Origin: Streptomyces sp. WM4235
GTDB lineage: Bacteria; Actinomycetota; Actinomycetes; Streptomycetales; Streptomycetaceae
NCBI RefSeq assembly: GCF_001279725.1
Contig: NZ_LGDE01000226.1
Coordinates: 1-64,000 of the forward strand
Length of the DNA stretch: 64,000 bases
Direction of reading: 5' to 3'
Part shown: piece by piece, positions 36,070 through 45,187 of the stretch
Layout of the letters: every line of letters begins with the position of its first letter
Numbering within the stretch: the stretch's first letter is position 1
Translations under genes and position numbers: made by a program
Notes under the pieces: generated by a model
Told to the model about the DNA's origin: nothing
Seen by the model: the letters and a program-made list of their open reading frames with translations, nothing else
Database searches by the model: none

Positions 36070-36987
36070 TCAGGCCCGGTCTTTACCGATTCCGGGCGCC
36101 TTTTGTGCCGCGTTCTTTGCCGCGACAACCGCGTCGAAAACGTCCCGCTTGGGTACGCCCGCCTCGGCGGCGACGGCGGCGATGGCCTCCTTGCGACGCT
36201 CCCCCGCCTCCTCGCGCACCCGCACCCTGCGCACCAGCTCCTCGTCGTCCACGTCGCCGGGTCCGGCGGCCGGGGCCCCCTCGACGACGACCGTGATCTC
36301 CCCGCGCACGCCCTCGGCGGCCCACGCCGCCAACTCGCCCAGCCCGCCGCGCTTGACCTCCTCGTACGTCTTGGTCAGTTCGCGGCAGACGGCCGCCCGC
36401 CGGTCGGCGCCGAAGACCTCCGCCATGGCGGCCAGGGTGTCGTCGAGCCGGTGGGGCGCCTCGAAGTAGACGAGGGTGCGGCGCTCCGCCTCGACCTCGC
36501 GCAGCCGGCCGAGGCGCTCGCCGGCCTTGCGCGGCAGGAAGCCCTCGAAGCAGAACCGGTCCACGGGCAACCCGGACAGGGCGAGCGCGGTCAGCACGGC
36601 GGAGGGCCCCGGCACGGCGGTGACCTTGATGTCCTTCTCCACGGCGGCGGCGACCAGCCGGTAGCCGGGGTCGGACACCGAGGGCATGCCGGCGTCGGTG
36701 ACCAGCAGCACCCGCTTGCCGGCCTCCAGGGCCTCGACGAGTTCGGGGGTGCGGGCGGACTCGTTGCCCTCGAAGTACGACAGGACGCGCCCGGTGGTGT
36801 GCACACCGAGCCCCTGGGTCAGCCTCCGCAGCCGCCGGGTGTCCTCGGCGGCGATCACATCGGCCCGCTCCAGCTCGGCCCCGAGCCGGGGCGGGGCGTC
36901 GGCGAGATCGCCGATCGGGGTGCCGGCGAGCACGAGCACACCGGTGGAAGGGGAGGTCTCGGCGCCGCGGGGCTGGTCAGTCGTCAC
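36070..36987 (-). CDS. rsmI: 16S rRNA 2'-O-methyltransferase RsmI (C1402)
   Basis: 305 residues from GTG 36987. It is a SPOUT-unrelated tetrapyrrole-methylase-fold enzyme modifying the ribose of C1402 in the 30S P-site. Signatures are VLVLAGTPIGDLADAPPR, IAAEDTRRLRRLTQGLG, LLVTDAGMPSVSDPGYRLV, VTAVPGPSAVLTALALSGLP, and RELTKTYEEVKRG. It is full length. The 88-bp gap to the divergent pmt gene holds both promoters. Confidence 0.96.
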   Translation of the reverse strand: MTTDQPRGAETSPSTGVLVLAGTPIGDLADAPPRLGAELERADVIAAEDTRRLRRLTQGLGVHTTGRVLSYFEGNESARTPELVEALEAGKRVLLVTDAGMPSVSDPGYRLVAAAVEKDIKVTAVPGPSAVLTALALSGLPVDRFCFEGFLPRKAGERLGRLREVEAERRTLVYFEAPHRLDDTLAAMAEVFGADRRAAVCRELTKTYEEVKRGGLGELAAWAAEGVRGEITVVVEGAPAAGPGDVDDEELVRRVRVREEAGERRKEAIAAVAAEAGVPKRDVFDAVVAAKNAAQKAPGIGKDRA

Positions 36988-37075
36988 CCGCCCATCCTCT
37001 CAGGAGCCCCACCCGGCACGCCCCGGGCCGCCCCGGCGCTGGGGTTCCCGCGGACGCGTTCCCTACGATGACCCG

Positions 37076-38842
37076 GTGACCAGTACCGCGACGCCGCCGC
37101 CCAGCCCCGCGGGGGCCCCGCCCGCCCCCTCGGGCGGACGCGACTCCGAGCCCGAGCCGTCCGTCTGGCTCCGCCGTCTGCGGGGCTTCGGCTACGCGCC
37201 GCGGACCCCGGACGCGGACGTCCGTACCCGCCTCGTGCCCCCGTACGCCCGCCCCTCCGCACAGTTGTGGACGGCGCTCGGCGTGCCGGCCGCGGCGGCG
37301 GTCACCTGGCAGCGGGTCCTGGCGTGGGCCGGGCCGCTGCTGGTGGCCCTGGTCGCCGGGGTGCTGCGGTTCGTGCACCTGGGCAGCCCCAAGGCGGTGA
37401 TATTCGACGAGACGTACTACGCCAAGGACGCCTGGGCCACGATCCGACAGGGCTACGAGGCGAGTTGGCCCAAGGACATCGACAAGTCGATCCTGTCCGA
37501 CCCGGACGGGGTGGCGCTGCCGCTGGACCCGGGCTACGTCGTGCACCCGCCGGTCGGCAAATGGGTGATCGGCATCGGCGAGTGGATGTTCGGCTTCGAT
37601 CCGTTCGGCTGGCGGTTCATGACCGCCGTGCTCGGCACGCTGTCCGTGCTGATGCTGTGCCGGATCGGCCGCCGGCTCTTCCGATCCACCTTCCTCGGCT
37701 GCCTGGCGGGCGCGCTGCTGGCGGTGGACGGCCTGCACCTGGTGATGAGCCGCACGGCCCTCCTCGACCTGGTGCTGATGTTCTTCGTCCTGGCCGCCTT
37801 CGGGGCGCTGGTCGTCGACCGGGACAAGGCCCGGGCGAAACTCGCGGCGGCGCTCCCCGTGGACGAGGACGGACGCACCCGCCCCGACCTCGCCGTCGCG
37901 GAGACGCTGCGGCTGGGCCTGCGCCCGTACCGGATCCTGGCGGGCGTCTGCCTGGGTCTGGCGTTCGGCACCAAGTGGAACGGCCTGGTGATCCTGGCCT
38001 TCTTCGGGATCCTGACCGTCCTGTGGGACACGGCCGCGCGCCGCACCGCCGGCGCGGGCGCCCCGTACGCGGCGATGCTGCGCAAGGACGCGCTGCCCGG
38101 CTTCCTCTCCACGGTGCCGGTGGCGATCGGCGTGTACCTGGCGTCGTGGACGGGCTGGATCCTCAGCCCGGACAACGGCAAGGGCGGCTACTTCCGCGAC
38201 TGGGCCGCCAAGAACGACCAGCACAGCTCGCTGTCCTTCCTGCCGGAATGGCTGCGGAGCCTGTGGCACTACGAGACCGAGGTCTACAAGTTCCACGTGG
38301 GCCTGACCTCGGGCCACACCTACGAGTCGAACCCGTGGAGCTGGCTCGTGCTCGGCCGGCCCGTCTCGTACTTCTACGAGTCCCCCGCACCCGGCACGGA
38401 CGGCTGCCCGGCCACGGAAACCGCCAAGTGCGCCCGCGAGGTACTGGCCCTGGGCACGCCCCTGCTGTGGTGGGCCGGCTGCTTCGCGCTGCTGTACGTA
38501 CTGTGGCGGTGGCTGTTCCGCCGCGACTGGCGGGCGGGCGCCATCACGTGCGCGCTGGCCGCCGGCCTGCTGCCCTGGTTCAACTACCAGGAGCGGACCA
38601 TCTTCTTCTTCTACGCGGTGGTCTTCGTCCCGTACCTGTGCCTGGCCGTGGCGATGATGATCGGCGCGATGCTCGGCCCGGCGGGCTCCTCGGAACGCCG
38701 CCGCGCGATCGGCGCGATCGGCGCGGGCGTACTCGTCCTGCTGATCGTCTGGAACTTCATCTACTTCTGGCCCATCTACACGGGCCAGTCCCTCCCGATG
38801 GACTCCTGGCGCGGCCGCATGTGGCTGGACACCTGGGTCTAG
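37076..38842 (+). CDS. pmt: protein O-mannosyltransferase
   Basis: 588 residues from GTG 37076. It is a GT39-family integral membrane enzyme transferring mannose from polyprenyl-phosphate-mannose to Ser/Thr of exported proteins. The catalytic acidic pair is in VIFDETYYAKDAW (first extracellular loop), and VMSRTALLDLVLMFF and FNYQERTIFFFYAVVF (PMT 4-helix C-terminal domain) are characteristic. About eleven helices are predicted by eye. In S. coelicolor Pmt with Ppm glycosylates surface proteins and is needed for phiC31 infection. Divergent from rsmI, an order typical of Streptomyces. Confidence 0.93.
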   Translation: MTSTATPPPSPAGAPPAPSGGRDSEPEPSVWLRRLRGFGYAPRTPDADVRTRLVPPYARPSAQLWTALGVPAAAAVTWQRVLAWAGPLLVALVAGVLRFVHLGSPKAVIFDETYYAKDAWATIRQGYEASWPKDIDKSILSDPDGVALPLDPGYVVHPPVGKWVIGIGEWMFGFDPFGWRFMTAVLGTLSVLMLCRIGRRLFRSTFLGCLAGALLAVDGLHLVMSRTALLDLVLMFFVLAAFGALVVDRDKARAKLAAALPVDEDGRTRPDLAVAETLRLGLRPYRILAGVCLGLAFGTKWNGLVILAFFGILTVLWDTAARRTAGAGAPYAAMLRKDALPGFLSTVPVAIGVYLASWTGWILSPDNGKGGYFRDWAAKNDQHSSLSFLPEWLRSLWHYETEVYKFHVGLTSGHTYESNPWSWLVLGRPVSYFYESPAPGTDGCPATETAKCAREVLALGTPLLWWAGCFALLYVLWRWLFRRDWRAGAITCALAAGLLPWFNYQERTIFFFYAVVFVPYLCLAVAMMIGAMLGPAGSSERRRAIGAIGAGVLVLLIVWNFIYFWPIYTGQSLPMDSWRGRMWLDTWV

Positions 38843-38859
38843 CGCCACGGAAGCACCCG

Positions 38860-38891
38860 ACGGGCCCGACACCTGACGGTGCCGGGCCCGT
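38860..38891 (+). terminator. terminator after pmt
   Basis: A 14-bp stem (38860-38873 with 38878-38891) with one mismatch and a TGAC loop lies 17 bp past the pmt stop. Confidence 0.8.
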
Positions 38892-39089
38892 GGTGGTTGT
38901 TGGTGGTGGTCGCCGGCCGTCCTGGGCCGCCCCTCGACGGCCCACAGACGGCCCAGATCTACTGGCTGGCGGATTTACAGACCCCTCCCGAGCCCGCAGC
39001 AAAAGGCCTTTTGACCTGCTGCGGAGATCAGCAGCGGCGGGCGCACCGAGTCCCCCGTCCACACCACGTCCTGATCTTGTTTGGCGCCG

Positions 39090-39683
39090 TTAGGCCGCGG
39101 GAACCGCCCACTCGATCGGTGAGGGGTGACCGATGGGGGCGTAGACGATCTTCGTGGGGCGCTGGTCGCCGGGAACCGGAAATGGGATCTTGCCGCGCAC
39201 ACAGTCGCCGGCCTTGACCACCGTGGGCATCGTCGGAAACTCGGGCTTCGGCAAGTCGCCACCGTTCAGACCTGTCACTTGAAATCGGGCCCCATCGGCG
39301 TAGGCGAGAGACCAAGGCTCTTGATTCGTTGAGATGTCCGGGCCCTGTGTGTTGCACACCTTCACGTCGACTGCGGCCCATACTCCCTTGCCGTCAACCC
39401 CCAACCCCTCTCCAGGCGGAGTGACTCCCTTGACCGGTTGCTCATAACTCAGCACAACGGTGGTGCCGATGGCCTGCCCCCGGGCCGCGTCTCCCCAACT
39501 CGTGGGTTGGCCAACCTTGAGTACTGCGGCTAGGGCGCTCCGCTCTGGGCTCGGCGTAGAAGCAGGAGCCGGGGTCGCCGGCGACGACGCGCTCCTCTTG
39601 GCTGATGGATCACCGTCACCACCCGAGCAGGCCGTCACCCCCACGAGGATGGATATGCCGAGAGCAGCCGTGCGAGTGCGCAT
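39090..39683 (-). CDS. secreted lipoprotein, DUF4352-like
   Basis: 197 residues. The lipoprotein signal is MRTRTAALGISILVGVTAC with lipobox VTAC at residue 19, then a Ser/Pro/Ala linker (20-50). A beta-rich domain includes GTTVVLSYEQPV, WAAVDVKVCNTQGP and KAGDCVRGKIPFPVP, and looks like the DUF4352/immunoglobulin-like fold of extracellular proteins. Two cysteines (about 110 and 163) could pair. It is the first gene past pmt with reduced GC and marks the left side of the accessory patch. It is divergent from the FokI-like nuclease with 285 bp between. Function is unknown. Confidence 0.8.
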   Translation of the reverse strand: MRTRTAALGISILVGVTACSGGDGDPSAKRSASSPATPAPASTPSPERSALAAVLKVGQPTSWGDAARGQAIGTTVVLSYEQPVKGVTPPGEGLGVDGKGVWAAVDVKVCNTQGPDISTNQEPWSLAYADGARFQVTGLNGGDLPKPEFPTMPTVVKAGDCVRGKIPFPVPGDQRPTKIVYAPIGHPSPIEWAVPAA

Positions 39684-39968
39684 GTTTCTCCCCCACTAGA
39701 CGGACGCAAGGCGATCATGCCGGGTGCGCGCCAGTACGTCTTCCGAGTCACAAAAAATGCGTCTCAGTGCCCGCGTCTGCGGCCCGCAGCCCTGGGGCGT
39801 CCCGGTCGCTATAGAACCCAGAGGGGTGGCCCTTGGCGGGCCACTCACAAGCGTTGAGTCATACGTCCGCGCCTGATGTCACGAGATCCTTCGTTTCCCC
39901 TCCACGGCGGATAGAGGTAGATACGATTCGCGCAGGGAAGGGCAAAATCTCCAGCGGGGTGGGATCTA

Positions 39969-41996
39969 GTGAGCGTGAGTAGCGGATTTCGGGCCTGGCG
40001 GGACCGAGCTAACACTATTGGCTACATTTCTGGCGGCACAGAGGTGCAGGCCTTCATGCTCCGTCAAGTATTGAGTCAACTTCCATGCATGGCGGACGAA
40101 AACCTGTCGCTACTGACTCCTGACGGAAAAGAAGTGAGCACTAATTGCGAAACGCTATGCGCCACGCAGCTTTCGACGTCTGGCTTGGTCGAGCGTCGAG
40201 GTAAGGGTGAGTGGGCGCCCAGTAAGTTCGCGGTCGAATGGCTGAAGTCTGATGACGCATCATCTTTGGCTACACATTTCCAGAATCACGTGAAGTTTTT
40301 CGGTGAGCTACTCGACTCCATCGGGGTTGACACGACCCATGCAGATCTTCTCGAAATCGCCAAGTCATCCTACGGCCTCGCCTGGAATAGTCTCGACCAG
40401 GTTCGCCGCCGTACAGGCTGGCTCAGAAGCCTGGGAATGGTTGAGCTTTGGGGACAAAAGGTCGTGCGCACGGCCGACGGCGACGCACTGTTGACATCCC
40501 TCCCCCTCTGCCTGCCAGAAGAGGCACTCGGCGGCGGGGAGGAAAATATGGAAAACGTCCCGAAGAGTGTTACCGACTTTCTCTCGCAGCACACGAAGAT
40601 TGACCAGGACGAACTCCGTAGGAGGCGGCCGCTAATTGGCTATATTCCGAGGGGAACCAAGGGTACGGCTCGCGATGATGACGCTTCCCTGACACCGATT
40701 GGCGCCATCAGGAAAATTGTCGGAGTACTTGGCACCGGTATGACCGTCGAGGACTTCAGAGAGAGCTGCCGGAGCGAGTTGGGGATCAGCAAGTCCTCGC
40801 TTGAATCAACGCTTCACACTCTGCGCCACATGAAAATTATCGAGCAGTCGGCGTTCAATTTCTATTCCCCCACCCAGGAGGCCACTCGCCTCACCGGCCA
40901 GGGAATGGAGGTTGAGCTAGTCGCATTCCTCCACACCAGGTACGCGTTCTTCGGCGAGATTCTCAACCATCTGGACACACCCACCTCAACCTCGTCTTTG
41001 ACGGGTCTAGCTCGGGAGAGCTACGGATACACGCAGGCCTCTAATGGAGAAATCCGCTTGCGCCTTGGATTTCTCCAGGATGCCGGTCTGGCCGAACGGG
41101 TGGACTGGCAAAGGTTTCGCATTACGGGGTCAGGCAAATCGATTAGATCGCTGCTGAGTATGCAGACCCAAGGGACCGAGAGCGAGATCTCAGTACAGCA
41201 GAGCACACAAGCCGACAAGGATTTGGCTCTCACTCAAGTTATCGAAGCGTTGGGTCGCCACAGCAGAGACGGGAACGAGAGCAGAGAATTTGAAATTGCC
41301 GTCACCGAGGCCTTCAGAATTCTCGGATTCCTGACCGAGCACTTGGGTGGCCCCGGCAATACTGACGTACTGAGCCGTGCAGAACTTTCACCTTCGGACC
41401 GATATAGTGTAATCATCGACACTAAGAGCTCCGGCACGGGTGTGGTTGCGGAGTCGAGTGTGAAGTTCGACGCCCTGCGCGAACACAAGAGGAAGCATGC
41501 AGCCGATTACGTCATCGTTATCGGCCCTAGCTTCGCGAACCGCCTAAAGAATTGGGCGATCGAAAACAGCGTACTCCTGATCGAAGTTGCCGAACTTGTA
41601 TCGATCTTGGAGCGCCATGTCATTAACCCGCTACCCCTGATGGAATTTCGGGAGATCTTCGCGCGCGTCGACGCACCTAAAGACGAGCTGATGGAGCGAT
41701 ACGACCATTTGCAACGCCGCTCCTCCCTATTGCGGAAGATTTTGGATCTCGCCTTCCAAGAGGCCACCGACGAAGACCCCATTGCTGCCGGGTATATCAG
41801 TGTGGAAAACATGGCCTATGCGCTGAGGAAAGAAGTCGCGCCACGGCCGTCAGCGAACGAAATCCGCGAATCACTTGAATTCCTATCCAACCCGATGATT
41901 GGAGCGCTAGAGGAGGATAAGGGTCGCTACAAACTGGCCGACTCTACCGGGAATATCGCCCTCAGGCTTTCCGGTCTCAGCATCTCGCTCTCGTAG
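39969..41996 (+). CDS. solitary FokI-like PD-(D/E)xK restriction-type nuclease with duplicated DNA-binding modules
   Basis: 675 residues from GTG 39969 (a second GTG lies at 39975). Residues about 15-180 and 215-395 are two copies of one module: IGYI(S/P)xGT at the start, then FFGE(L/I)L, a segment ending (K/R)(S/E)SYG, then LRSLGMVE or LQDAGLAE, and a TxxG-x-LL end. Both look like winged-helix DNA-binding units. Residues about 440-570 form the cleavage domain: GFLTEHLGG, D466 (NTDVL), D484 and K486 (SVIIDTKSSG), very close to FokI GKHLGG...PDG...GVIVDTKAYSG. A C-terminal helical tail follows. It is markedly A/T-richer than its neighbours. No methyltransferase is adjacent, so self-protection is unexplained. 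It is probably a mobile defence nuclease (inference). Confidence 0.85.
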   Translation: MSVSSGFRAWRDRANTIGYISGGTEVQAFMLRQVLSQLPCMADENLSLLTPDGKEVSTNCETLCATQLSTSGLVERRGKGEWAPSKFAVEWLKSDDASSLATHFQNHVKFFGELLDSIGVDTTHADLLEIAKSSYGLAWNSLDQVRRRTGWLRSLGMVELWGQKVVRTADGDALLTSLPLCLPEEALGGGEENMENVPKSVTDFLSQHTKIDQDELRRRRPLIGYIPRGTKGTARDDDASLTPIGAIRKIVGVLGTGMTVEDFRESCRSELGISKSSLESTLHTLRHMKIIEQSAFNFYSPTQEATRLTGQGMEVELVAFLHTRYAFFGEILNHLDTPTSTSSLTGLARESYGYTQASNGEIRLRLGFLQDAGLAERVDWQRFRITGSGKSIRSLLSMQTQGTESEISVQQSTQADKDLALTQVIEALGRHSRDGNESREFEIAVTEAFRILGFLTEHLGGPGNTDVLSRAELSPSDRYSVIIDTKSSGTGVVAESSVKFDALREHKRKHAADYVIVIGPSFANRLKNWAIENSVLLIEVAELVSILERHVINPLPLMEFREIFARVDAPKDELMERYDHLQRRSSLLRKILDLAFQEATDEDPIAAGYISVENMAYALRKEVAPRPSANEIRESLEFLSNPMIGALEEDKGRYKLADSTGNIALRLSGLSISLS

Positions 41997-42251
41997 CGCC
42001 ACCTCTCACGCTTTCCAGCATGCTTTCGCCGTCACTGTTCTGTGAGGCGTCCACGAGCGGGACGGTCGGACAGACGCGGCAGCCGTTCGGGCGAGGGCAG
42101 AGGGCAGAACCTCCGCAGGATTTGCTGCGTACGGGGCAGTTCAAGGCCCCCGTCGGCTGAGACGTTCAGCGCGCGTTCCCATGCTCCGGCTCGCAATCCG
42201 GCGGTTCTGGCCCACGTCTGGCCCACCGAGCCCCAACACGGCCGACGGAGG

Positions 42252-42638
42252 TTAGACCCTTCTGCGCTGACTCGGAACGGCGATGTACAACTGCTGGAGA
42301 CCGTGCAGAGCGGCATGGAAGCCAGCCGCGATCTCGCGGGCCCTCTCCTCAGTCTCGATCGGGTACAGGGAGATGTAGTCAGGTGCAATGTTGGCCTGCG
42401 TCACCGTGCCAGCGAGTACCAATGCTTCAGCAGCGGACCGAAGGACTGTCATTGCTTCGTCCGGGATCCTGGGCCCGCTGCTAGTCATAGCGTCGAGCTC
42501 CACCTTCCAGCGCCGGCCCTGACGAGCGACGCATACAAAGATCGCGTTGTTGGTCTTGGCGCTTCGATAGGCCGCGTGGTGAGCTTCCGGATCGGTGCAG
42601 TCGAGGATGAGTGCAGCTGGGAGAGGCGTTCCGAGCAT
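42252..42638 (-). CDS. small hypothetical protein in the accessory patch
   Basis: 128 residues from ATG 42638; GTG 42668 would add ten residues, and neither start has a good ribosome binding site. The sequence reads as a real alpha/beta domain: PLPAALILDC, NAIFVCVARQGRRWKVELDA, then helices IPDEAMTVLRSAAEALVLAG and ERAREIAAGFHAALHGL. I do not recognise a family. It is convergent with the FokI-like nuclease gene, 255 bp beyond its end, and has mixed base composition typical of transferred DNA. It may be an intact cargo gene or the remainder of a longer one. Confidence 0.55.
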   Translation of the reverse strand: MLGTPLPAALILDCTDPEAHHAAYRSAKTNNAIFVCVARQGRRWKVELDAMTSSGPRIPDEAMTVLRSAAEALVLAGTVTQANIAPDYISLYPIETEERAREIAAGFHAALHGLQQLYIAVPSQRRRV

Positions 42639-42799
42639 CGGTATGCACCCATCGTCGCAGGCGCTCACCCCAGAAATCAGGCAAACAGGAGGTCGGCCAC
42701 AGCCCTGATCGTTCGGAATGTCATCCGTCGCCGTCAGGCCGCGAGCATCTACCGCCTCCGCGCACACCCCGCCTGAGGCCGGGCCGGCCGGGCAACGCA

Positions 42800-42833
42800 G
42801 AAGGCCCCGGCCGGTTTCCCGGTCGGGGCCTTC
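42800..42833 (-). terminator. hairpin beside the tRNA-Ser fragment
   Basis: A 15-bp stem (one G-T pair), GAAGGCCCCGGCCGG with CCGGTCGGGGCCTTC, lies 18 bp beyond the CCA-side end of the tRNA-Ser fragment when read on the minus strand. It looks like the former tRNA or element terminator. Confidence 0.75.
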
Positions 42834-42851
42834 AAGTGCCCGGTGAGGCAC

Positions 42852-42907
42852 TGGCAGAGGATACGAGATTCGACTCGTGAGGGGTTGCCCCCCAACACGC
42901 TTTCCAA
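42852..42907 (-). other. degenerate 3' half of a tRNA-Ser (candidate att remnant)
   Basis: Read on the minus strand, these 56 bases match the 3' part of tRNA-Ser (GGA) from the anticodon loop to CCA: TTGGAAAGCGTG, a long variable arm GGGGGGCAACCCC, a T arm CACGAG/CTCGTA-like and the acceptor end ATCCTCTGCCA. The 5' half is absent, and the T loop has lost one T of TTCGAA. It therefore cannot fold as a tRNA. Starting in the anticodon loop and ending at CCA is the usual extent of an att core left by tyrosine-integrase elements. Confidence 0.8.
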
Positions 42908-43046
42908 CTGTCCGCGTGGCCGTTCACGGGGGTTCGCGGCGTCCGCGCAGCAGCCCAGACAGCGCGCTTGCACGGCGGTGAAGCCAGGCGGCCGTCCGCG
43001 CACTGGACAAAGACCGGGACAACGGATCTGGCATGGCGGGCCCGCA

Positions 43047-43136
43047 TTGCCGTTCCCGGAGTTGCGGGGAGCAGCCGCGGACCTGGGCGTTGAAAAGCGC
43101 GGCCGGAGGTTCATCCCCGCGCGTGCGGGGAGCAGG
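43047..43136 (-). CRISPR. relic type I-E CRISPR array, two repeats and one spacer
   Basis: An intact 29-bp repeat (43108-43136, core CCCCGCGCGTGCGGGG followed by AGCAG) is the Streptomyces type I-E form. Exactly 61 bp away lies a second copy (43047-43075) identical over the 12-base TGCGGGGAGCAG end but decayed in the rest, enclosing a 32-bp spacer (43076-43107). On the minus strand the decayed copy is the leader-distal repeat with a degenerate 3' half, as expected of terminal repeats. There are no cas genes in the window. Confidence 0.8.
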
Positions 43137-43458
43137 CTTGCTGAGCTGGGACGGTATCCGGCTCGGCCGGCACTTTGCAGTACTTTCGCCGATTCCGGCG
43201 TACCGGGCGAAGGCCACAGACCCCCGGCCGGCATCTGGCGCGGCTCGCGCCCACCGCATGACGCGGCGCCCCGGGTGAGCGGCCCGCGGCCCGCCCGTGC
43301 CGGCGTCACCTGGACACCCGGAGTCGCGCGCAACCGCGCCCACCCCCAACGCTCCACCCCCGTCGCCGCGTTCGGCGTGTGACGGGCGGCACGTTCCGGT
43401 CCGGTAACAACACGCGCAACACGCGCTCGCTCAGCGTAATGTCCACACCAGGGGTTCT

Positions 43459-43470
43459 TGAACATGTTCA
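43459..43470. promoter_or_regulatory. palindrome TGAACATGTTCA upstream of the PBP gene
   Basis: A perfect 12-bp palindrome lies 31 bp before the PBP start, within the likely promoter or leader. Two bases separate the GAAC/GTTC half-sites, so it does not fit the actinobacterial LexA box, which needs four. The binding protein is unknown. Confidence 0.45.
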
Positions 43471-43501
43471 GAGAACCGTGGCTCCTGGGGAGGGGACGCA
43501 A

Positions 43502-45187
43502 GTGAACGGGGCGGCGAAGGGTGCCATCATCGGCGGGGTGTTCCTCGCGATGGTCGGCGGTGCCGGGTACGGCATGTACTCACTGGTCGGCGACACCGGC
43601 GGGGAGAAGGACGACACGGTTGCCGGCAAGACGGCGACCGGCGCGTCGAGGGGCGAGGGCCCGGTCACCGAGAAGGAGACCGCGGAGGCCGCGAAGGGCT
43701 TCCTGACGGCATGGGCGGCCGGGGACGAGCGCACGGCGGCCGACTGGACGAACAACGCGTCCGAGGCGCTGTCGGCGGTCGCCGACTTCAAGACCAGGGC
43801 CTACGTGTCCAAGGCGGTGATCACCCCCGGCACCCCGAGCGGCACGACCGTGCCCTTCAAGGTCGAGGCCGAGGTCACCTACGAGGGCACGACCAAGCCC
43901 CTCGCGTACGAGTCCCGGCTCACCGTGGTCCGCGGACTCAGCACCGGGAAGGCCCTGGTCGACTGGCAGGCCTCGGTGATCCATCCGGACCTCAAGCGCG
44001 GCGAGCGGCTGCGCGCGGGCACGCCGGCCAGTCCCCCGGTCAAGCTGGTGGACCGCAACGACCAGGAACTGACCCCGGAGAAGTACCCGTCGCTGCGGCC
44101 CGTGCTGGCCCAACTGCGCGAGGCCTACGGCAGCAAGGCCGGCGGCAAGGCGGGAGCGGAGCTGTGGATCGAACCGGCCACCGCCACCGCCACTACCGCC
44201 ACCACCGCCCAGGACGGTGACGCCGGGCAGGACGGCGGCGGCAGACGCACGCTGTTGACCCTGGTGGCGGGCGAGCCGAGCACGCTCAAGACGTACCTGG
44301 ACGCGAAGGTGCAGGCGGCGGCGGAGCAGGCGGTGGCCAAGTACCCGGAGTCCTCGGTGGTGGCCGTCAAGCCGAGCAACGGCCACATCCTGGCAATCGC
44401 CAACCACCGCAAGGACGGCTACAACGCGGCGATGACGGGCACGCGCGCACCCGGCTCGACGATGAAGATCGTCACGGCGGCGATGCTGCTCGACCGGGGC
44501 AAGGTGGCCGCCGACAGCCCCGCCCCGTGCGACAAGACGGTCTCCTGGGGCGGCCGTTCCTTCCACAACCTGAGCAACTTCCAACTGCCGGCGGGCACGA
44601 ACTTCGCGACGAGCTTCGCCAAGTCCTGCAACACCGCCTTCATCAAGCAGATCAAGGAGGTCGACGAGGACGCCGCGCTGTCGAAGGAGGCCACGGAGGT
44701 CTTCGGCATCGGCCTGGACTGGAAGACGGGCATCAAGTCCTTCGACGGCAAGGTTCCGGTGACGACCGGAGCGGAGTCGGCGGCCGAGTACATCGGGCAG
44801 GGCCAGATCACCATGAACCCGCTGAACATCGCGTCCATCACGGCGACGGCACGCAGCGGCCGGTTCCACCAGCCCCTGCTGGTCTCCCCCGAGCTGGACG
44901 GCCGGCCGACCGCGACGGCGGCGCGCACGATGAAGTCGTCGGTGCGCGGCCAACTCGTCTCCATGATGCGGCTGACGGCGACCAGCGGTACCGGCGCCGA
45001 CGCCATGGCCTCGGTCGGCGGCGACAAGGGCGCGAAGACCGGTTCGGCGGAGGTGGACGGCGCGGCGAGCCCGGACAGTTGGTTCACGGGCTTCAGCGAC
45101 GACGTGGCCGCGGCGGCGATGGTCGAGGGCGGCGGCCACGGCGGTGCCGCGGCGGGCCCGATCGTGGCGGCGGTCCTGCGTTCCTGA
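43502..45187 (+). CDS. class B penicillin-binding protein (MecA-N-like domain plus transpeptidase)
   Basis: 561 residues from GTG 43502, with AGGGG upstream. A single N-terminal membrane anchor (about 6-26, GAIIGGVFLAMVGGAGYGMYSL) precedes an NTF2/MecA_N-like domain (about 55-165). A penicillin-binding transpeptidase follows with all three motifs: S319-TMK322, S375-C-N377 and K512-T-G. The dimerisation region is shorter than in FtsI-like PBPs. Such PBPs in Streptomyces cluster near pmt and are linked to sporulation-septum or envelope growth. A 20-residue Thr/Ala and Gly/Asp-rich insertion (about 222-245) precedes the catalytic domain. Confidence 0.93.
   Translation: MNGAAKGAIIGGVFLAMVGGAGYGMYSLVGDTGGEKDDTVAGKTATGASRGEGPVTEKETAEAAKGFLTAWAAGDERTAADWTNNASEALSAVADFKTRAYVSKAVITPGTPSGTTVPFKVEAEVTYEGTTKPLAYESRLTVVRGLSTGKALVDWQASVIHPDLKRGERLRAGTPASPPVKLVDRNDQELTPEKYPSLRPVLAQLREAYGSKAGGKAGAELWIEPATATATTATTAQDGDAGQDGGGRRTLLTLVAGEPSTLKTYLDAKVQAAAEQAVAKYPESSVVAVKPSNGHILAIANHRKDGYNAAMTGTRAPGSTMKIVTAAMLLDRGKVAADSPAPCDKTVSWGGRSFHNLSNFQLPAGTNFATSFAKSCNTAFIKQIKEVDEDAALSKEATEVFGIGLDWKTGIKSFDGKVPVTTGAESAAEYIGQGQITMNPLNIASITATARSGRFHQPLLVSPELDGRPTATAARTMKSSVRGQLVSMMRLTATSGTGADAMASVGGDKGAKTGSAEVDGAASPDSWFTGFSDDVAAAAMVEGGGHGGAAAGPIVAAVLRS

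Follow-up and report, generated by a model that had tools for sequence, protein, structure and literature searches.

The window, a 64,000-nucleotide stretch of DNA from Streptomyces sp. WM4235 (contig NZ_LGDE01000226.1), holds a nuclease gene that lies within a 4.5 kb interval bordered by a mannosyltransferase-like gene (protein mannosyltransferase, named by eye) and a penicillin-binding-protein gene (Table 1). The nuclease gene has a GC content of 55.7%, as opposed to 73.3% in the flanks, in agreement with the A/T-rich insert claimed when the stretch was first read. In an empty-site comparison that involved eight relatives, one of which was left out (L072, incomplete anchors), the same pair of anchor genes was found in the other seven at distances of 0.1-2.6 kb (102-2583 bp when measured from one match end to the next), with no nuclease between them. 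The simplest reading is that a gene was inserted into a variable spot, loss from the relatives being the alternative, and the nuclease gene was probably acquired horizontally. Within the family at large, the nuclease gene displays a GC content at least 0.05 below that of its flank in 10 of 27 loci.

Table 1. Features of the nuclease locus, in window coordinates and protein residues
Feature	Residues	Position	Strand	Details
Window nuclease gene		39969..41996	+	675 aa, GTG start, TAG stop
Reader module A, two winged helices	12-182	40002..40514	+	
Reader module B, duplicate of module A	222-398	40632..41162	+	
FokI-type PD-(D/E)XK nuclease domain	414-569	41208..41675	+	profile and fold
Catalytic stretch D466 ... 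D484-T-K486		41364..41426	+	alignment
C-terminal winged helix (fifth)	570-675	41676..41993	+	after nuclease domain
Nuclease-holding interval, 4.5 kb		38843..43378	.	mannosyltransferase-like gene to penicillin-binding-protein gene
Mannosyltransferase-like gene		36686-38842		left neighbor of interval
Penicillin-binding-protein gene		43379-45187		right neighbor of interval; Pfam

The interval also contains a lipoprotein-like gene with a weak match to DUF4352 (39090-39683, minus strand) and, on the other side of the nuclease, an ORF with no Pfam family (42252-42851, minus strand); no link between either of these and the window nuclease was seen. In addition, two copies of a stretch that ends in GCGGGGAGCAG are located at 43047-43138, 61 nt apart and with cores at 43064 and 43125. 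These stretches recall a type I-E CRISPR repeat, a full repeat being recognizable by eye in the second copy only, and an Rfam search of 43047-43138 returned no CRISPR match; they are possibly the remnant of a mini-array or the product of chance.

FokI is the top match to the window nuclease by the profile of its relatives, by Foldseek and by VIA (AlphaFold2 model), as the original prediction of a solitary FokI-type enzyme would have it. Residues D466, D/E484 and K486, all intact in the window protein, are present in 107 of the 108 aligned rows that cover the motif (111 rows in all) and are retained even in relatives that are only about 20% identical to the window protein, so that nuclease activity is probably under selection. 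Judged from alignment and from the modeled fold, the window protein is a FokI-type nuclease with intact catalytic residues. As to the Mrr family, for which a comparison had also been proposed, 28 of 58 rows match Mrr_cat (PF04471) at E <= 0.01, and the window protein is not among them. The generic REase_II model of PADLOC recognizes 14 of 58 relatives at E 1e-5, and the window protein at 3.8e-4.

The region ahead of the nuclease domain, where DNA-binding modules had been anticipated, is formed by two modules that are duplicates of each other (hhalign 99.9%, E 1.4e-34). Module B is similar to the parts of FokI, Nt.BspD6I and BpuJI that recognize DNA, and the N-terminal half of the protein carries, in tandem, two copies of a FokI/Nt.BspD6I/BpuJI-like reader composed of two winged helices; winged-helix regulators, PadR and MarR among them, are likewise similar to the modules. 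Among the stretches compared, the most conserved is the helix of module A that spans residues 143-154 (DQVRRRTGWLRS), whose mean entropy is 1.13, versus 1.96 for the nuclease, a degree of conservation unlike that expected of a site specificity that has diversified. The conservation of R148 and W151 may reflect packing, since W-x-x-x-L-G segments of FokI align there in very weak profile matches. A search for a modification-binding pocket in the window protein identified none, and DpnI, which reads 6mA through its winged helix, was absent among the profile and structure matches listed. Structural matches to FokI stop at residue 574, and the winged helix that closes the protein has no counterpart in them.

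Protein searches identified 53 and 90 relatives, in overlapping sets. The distribution of the family is sporadic: the nuclease is carried by 13 of 392 Streptomyces genomes, that of the host included, and it also occurs in other actinobacteria, in Bacillota and on haloarchaeal plasmids. Ten plasmid records match, of which five do so across most of the length (Gordonia, Priestia and three from Staphylococcus), and the five haloarchaeal records match the C-terminal half of the window nuclease or less. In three of the latter (L013, L014 and L015) the match is limited to the nuclease and the C-terminal part, and the Halorubrum relative (L013) begins with a different domain, for which phrog_14240 is a match at E 6.7e-20. 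No relatives were found in phage records or in viral-contig scans. Some copies are broken or incomplete, including one split over two frames in Streptomyces katrae (L007, 6959-9012), a shortened frame in [Actinomadura] parvosata (L006, 9821-11635) and a fragment in genome G312 (L047, 9872-10765). According to its annotation, the Priestia plasmid (L009, 1-9980) carries its relative in an apparent defense island, with another restriction endonuclease, ABC-three-component genes and an AbiH-family gene upstream and an integrase downstream. The word undescribed, applied at first reading to this candidate defense system, is apt in part: the architecture is new, but 12 of the 53 relatives already bear the source name restriction endonuclease, and REase_II matches were noted above.

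Complete ORFs of at least 100 aa were scanned by motif around 27 loci, two of which are near-identical Staphylococcus plasmids, over 1.5-18 kb beyond 1 kb from the gene, a procedure that recognized 6/6 known methyltransferases. No methyltransferase was detected within the flanks examined in 26 of the 27 loci, in bacteria as well as archaea, so the lack of an adjacent methyltransferase that had been remarked upon for the window extends to the family. The sole exception is Halorussus (L015), in which a gene for an Eco57I-type methyltransferase lies in the flank in opposite orientation; eight other motif-matching ORFs in the flanks had no Pfam family at E 0.01. The same survey of homologues, proposed at the outset, brought no clearly recurrent partner to light: the widest neighbor cluster, ABC-type ATPases (by eye) located 2.9-8 kb from the nuclease, occurs in four of the 27 loci, two clusters occur in three, and the rest in two. 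On the Staphylococcus, Priestia and Gordonia plasmids, no DNA methyltransferase is annotated within the 11-18 kb examined per plasmid; a type II enzyme without protection would presumably be hard to transfer.

A nuclease that enters new hosts by plasmid without a protecting methyltransferase must spare self DNA by some other rule, and the best-known rule that requires no methyltransferase is that of type IV restriction, where only DNA carrying a modification that the host lacks is cut. The reading that we place first, and to which we give an even chance, is that of a type IV-like restriction nuclease that acts alone and whose doubled reader responds to a feature missing from host DNA, likely a modification; a modification-dependent enzyme was one of the options raised at the outset. 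The duplicated winged-helix reader would bind this feature on incoming DNA, most likely a base or backbone modification introduced by a phage or by the methyltransferases of a donor, and the FokI-type domain, probably as a dimer, would make a double-strand cut nearby, both dimerization and cut position being extrapolated here. Host DNA would be spared because it lacks the sensed feature, and not because it is methylated. Since the host possesses type I, C5 and Eco57I-like methyltransferases, the feature, if these enzymes are active, would not be simply any methylated base. A precedent is offered by winged-helix readers fused to nucleases that were shown to follow this rule for 6mA (PMC11037411). 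Against the reading stand the lack of an identified modification-binding pocket and the nature of the closest structures, namely FokI, which is named in PMC11037411 as not methylation-dependent, and the nickase Nt.BspD6I.

Sensing of base composition or DNA shape ranks second, followed by an unlinked partner and a triggered nuclease. In the former, which is distinctly less probable than modification dependence, the readers would recognize A/T-rich or un-host-like DNA and the high-GC host would be spared by its composition. The clearest case in its favor would be provided by 17 relatives that carry a C-terminal Lsr2 DNA-binding domain (PF23359), positioned past the place of the C-terminal winged helix: P0066, P0068, P0069, P0071-P0074, P0077, P0095-P0101, L019 1459-3696 and L022 1450-3738. 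The Pfam Lsr2 domain was encountered in 8 of 90 proteins by annotation and in 8 of 58 rows by our own scan, the Lsr2 tail of P0074 employed as a query yielded seven further fused relatives, and the domain was confirmed here with Pfam in 12 of the 17, the other five relying on precomputed annotation. In a 64-row tree, which was built without P0053, P0088 and the short haloarchaeal rows and from which P0095-P0101, found afterwards, are absent, the 10 fused rows (eight plus two genus-survey loci) form a single clade with support of 100/99. Lsr2 binds A/T-rich foreign DNA in actinobacteria via its RGR motif and is not known to have a nuclease of its own; the fused clade thus hints at a nuclease that is directed to A/T-rich DNA. 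Of the 17 fused relatives, 16 retain all five of the nuclease residues that were checked and 15 the RGR motif; in P0101 (749 aa) the Lsr2 domain is retained but all five residues are lost, and by its sequence this protein has possibly turned into a pure binder. Several of the fused relatives were automatically named 'Lsr2 family DNA-binding protein', which left the nuclease unnoticed, and no description of Lsr2-nuclease fusions was found in the open-licence literature, judged by titles and abstract openings, although one Druantia paper among those listed mentions Lsr2. A bolder form of the proposal, which we consider unlikely, holds that the whole family distinguishes self from foreign DNA by physical make-up and not by a methylated site: the doubled readers, aided in one clade by the Lsr2 domain, would direct FokI-type cutting to DNA that is A/T-rich or un-host-like, and Lsr2, a reader for xenogeneic silencing, would thereby have been converted into a cutter. 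However, the window protein occupies a separate branch of the tree and no Lsr2 domain was found in it, relatives exist in the low-GC genera Staphylococcus and Priestia, where A/T-richness cannot mark foreign DNA, and Lsr2 could merely tether the enzyme to DNA.

An ordinary type IIS enzyme, protected by a methyltransferase encoded elsewhere in the genome, would be in keeping with FokI and Nt.BspD6I being the closest solved structures, and a published study (PMC3488263) predicts that, of 272 solitary RE genes, 57 have such an unlinked partner. A cognate methyltransferase elsewhere is also what the original prediction had named as its own counter-evidence, and a search with five family models revealed six methyltransferase genes in the host, three of which lie beside restriction genes of their own. 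The type I enzyme adjoins HsdR and the Eco57I-like enzyme adjoins an XhoI-type nuclease; two others are situated in a stretch that is prophage-like by eye, and these two, together with a C5 methyltransferase (C459) for which no partner was recognized, keep the idea alive. The third of those with restriction genes alongside is another C5 methyltransferase, which lies in a row with Vsr, an intervening 781-aa ORF and an Mrr/helicase gene elsewhere in the host (C79 62000-76000, L078), in what is a separate restriction-like locus. D12 is the class of the FokI-type methyltransferase, and no D12 enzyme was found in the host genome. Each of the 13 nuclease-bearing genomes has at least one methyltransferase gene, which speaks for an unlinked partner, but none of the five families searched is common to all of them (PF01555 in 5, PF00145 in 8, PF02384 in 10, PF02086 in 1 and PF07669 in 12); among these families, G389 has PF01555 only and G276 has PF07669 only. 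The latter genome had appeared free of methyltransferases with four families, until the PF07669 match ruled this out. Seven host queries, namely the XhoI-type nuclease and all six methyltransferases, were aligned to 11 stretches chosen in 7 of the remaining 12 genomes that bear the nuclease; a single close relative was identified, that of an N6/N4 enzyme from the prophage-like stretch (85%, in G227). Because no family is shared by all 13 genomes and close kinship is limited to this one pair, a conserved unlinked cognate methyltransferase is unlikely on these sequence comparisons, and, with no linked enzyme found in 26 of 27 loci, we hold the chance of a type IIS system of this kind to be slim. 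Similarly doubtful is a triggered or abortive nuclease, which would attack DNA once a winged-helix module is occupied by a phage product or ligand and would be inactive before that; the likeness to PadR and MarR and the additional C-terminal winged helix are compatible with it, but such winged-helix resemblance is generic and no partner or sensor gene clearly recurs. Finally, the broken or partial copies in L007, L006 and G312 and the loss of catalytic residues in P0101 could be taken to mean that the acquired gene is decaying or silenced, or that it serves regulation rather than defense, a reading that is very improbable in view of the 107 of 108 rows that retain the catalytic residues and of the full-length window copy.

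FokI-type enzymes are generally regarded as requiring a protecting methyltransferase. The association of an intact FokI nuclease and a doubled reader with no linked methyltransferase in 26 of 27 loci, among plasmids and chromosomes that range from actinobacteria to Staphylococcus, points to a different means of leaving self DNA uncut. One such means, base composition, could be tested directly in one protein of the Lsr2-fused clade. In Streptomyces, DNA that is foreign or methylated meets resistance; if the window nuclease depended on modification, type IV restriction would gain a FokI-type member, which might help to explain this resistance and would also provide a new reader for tools.

Comparison with characterized systems places the protein closest to FokI (type IIS, 1fok/2fok), which has one reader whereas the window protein has a doubled one, with a further winged helix after the nuclease and no linked cognate methyltransferase. 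Nt.BspD6I (2ewf, 5liz, 5lhc) is, by entry title, a site-specific nickase, whereas the window enzyme is a single protein. The recognition domain of BpuJI (2vla, 5hnh), SspB (6lb9) and BrxA are also among the closest known systems, but SspB and BrxA each work within a multi-gene system, unlike the window family, which has no clearly recurring partner genes. Lsr2, an actinobacterial nucleoid protein, shares its DNA-binding domain with one clade of the family and not with the window protein. The 6mA-dependent type IV nucleases (DpnI, HhiV4I, FcyTI and others) are similar in that winged helices are fused to a nuclease, including PD-(D/E)XK, and in that they mostly lack a neighboring methyltransferase, but they combine one winged helix with a PD-(D/E)XK, HNH, GIY-YIG or PLD nuclease. 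The study that characterizes such winged-helix-fused endonucleases as 6mA-dependent type IV systems covers over 1,000 cases, in 87% of which none of the three flanking genes on each side encodes a methyltransferase, and it names FokI as not methylation-dependent (PMC11037411). The window protein represents a new architectural variant of the FokI-type restriction enzymes, within a widespread family in which a linked methyltransferase was found at one of 27 loci.
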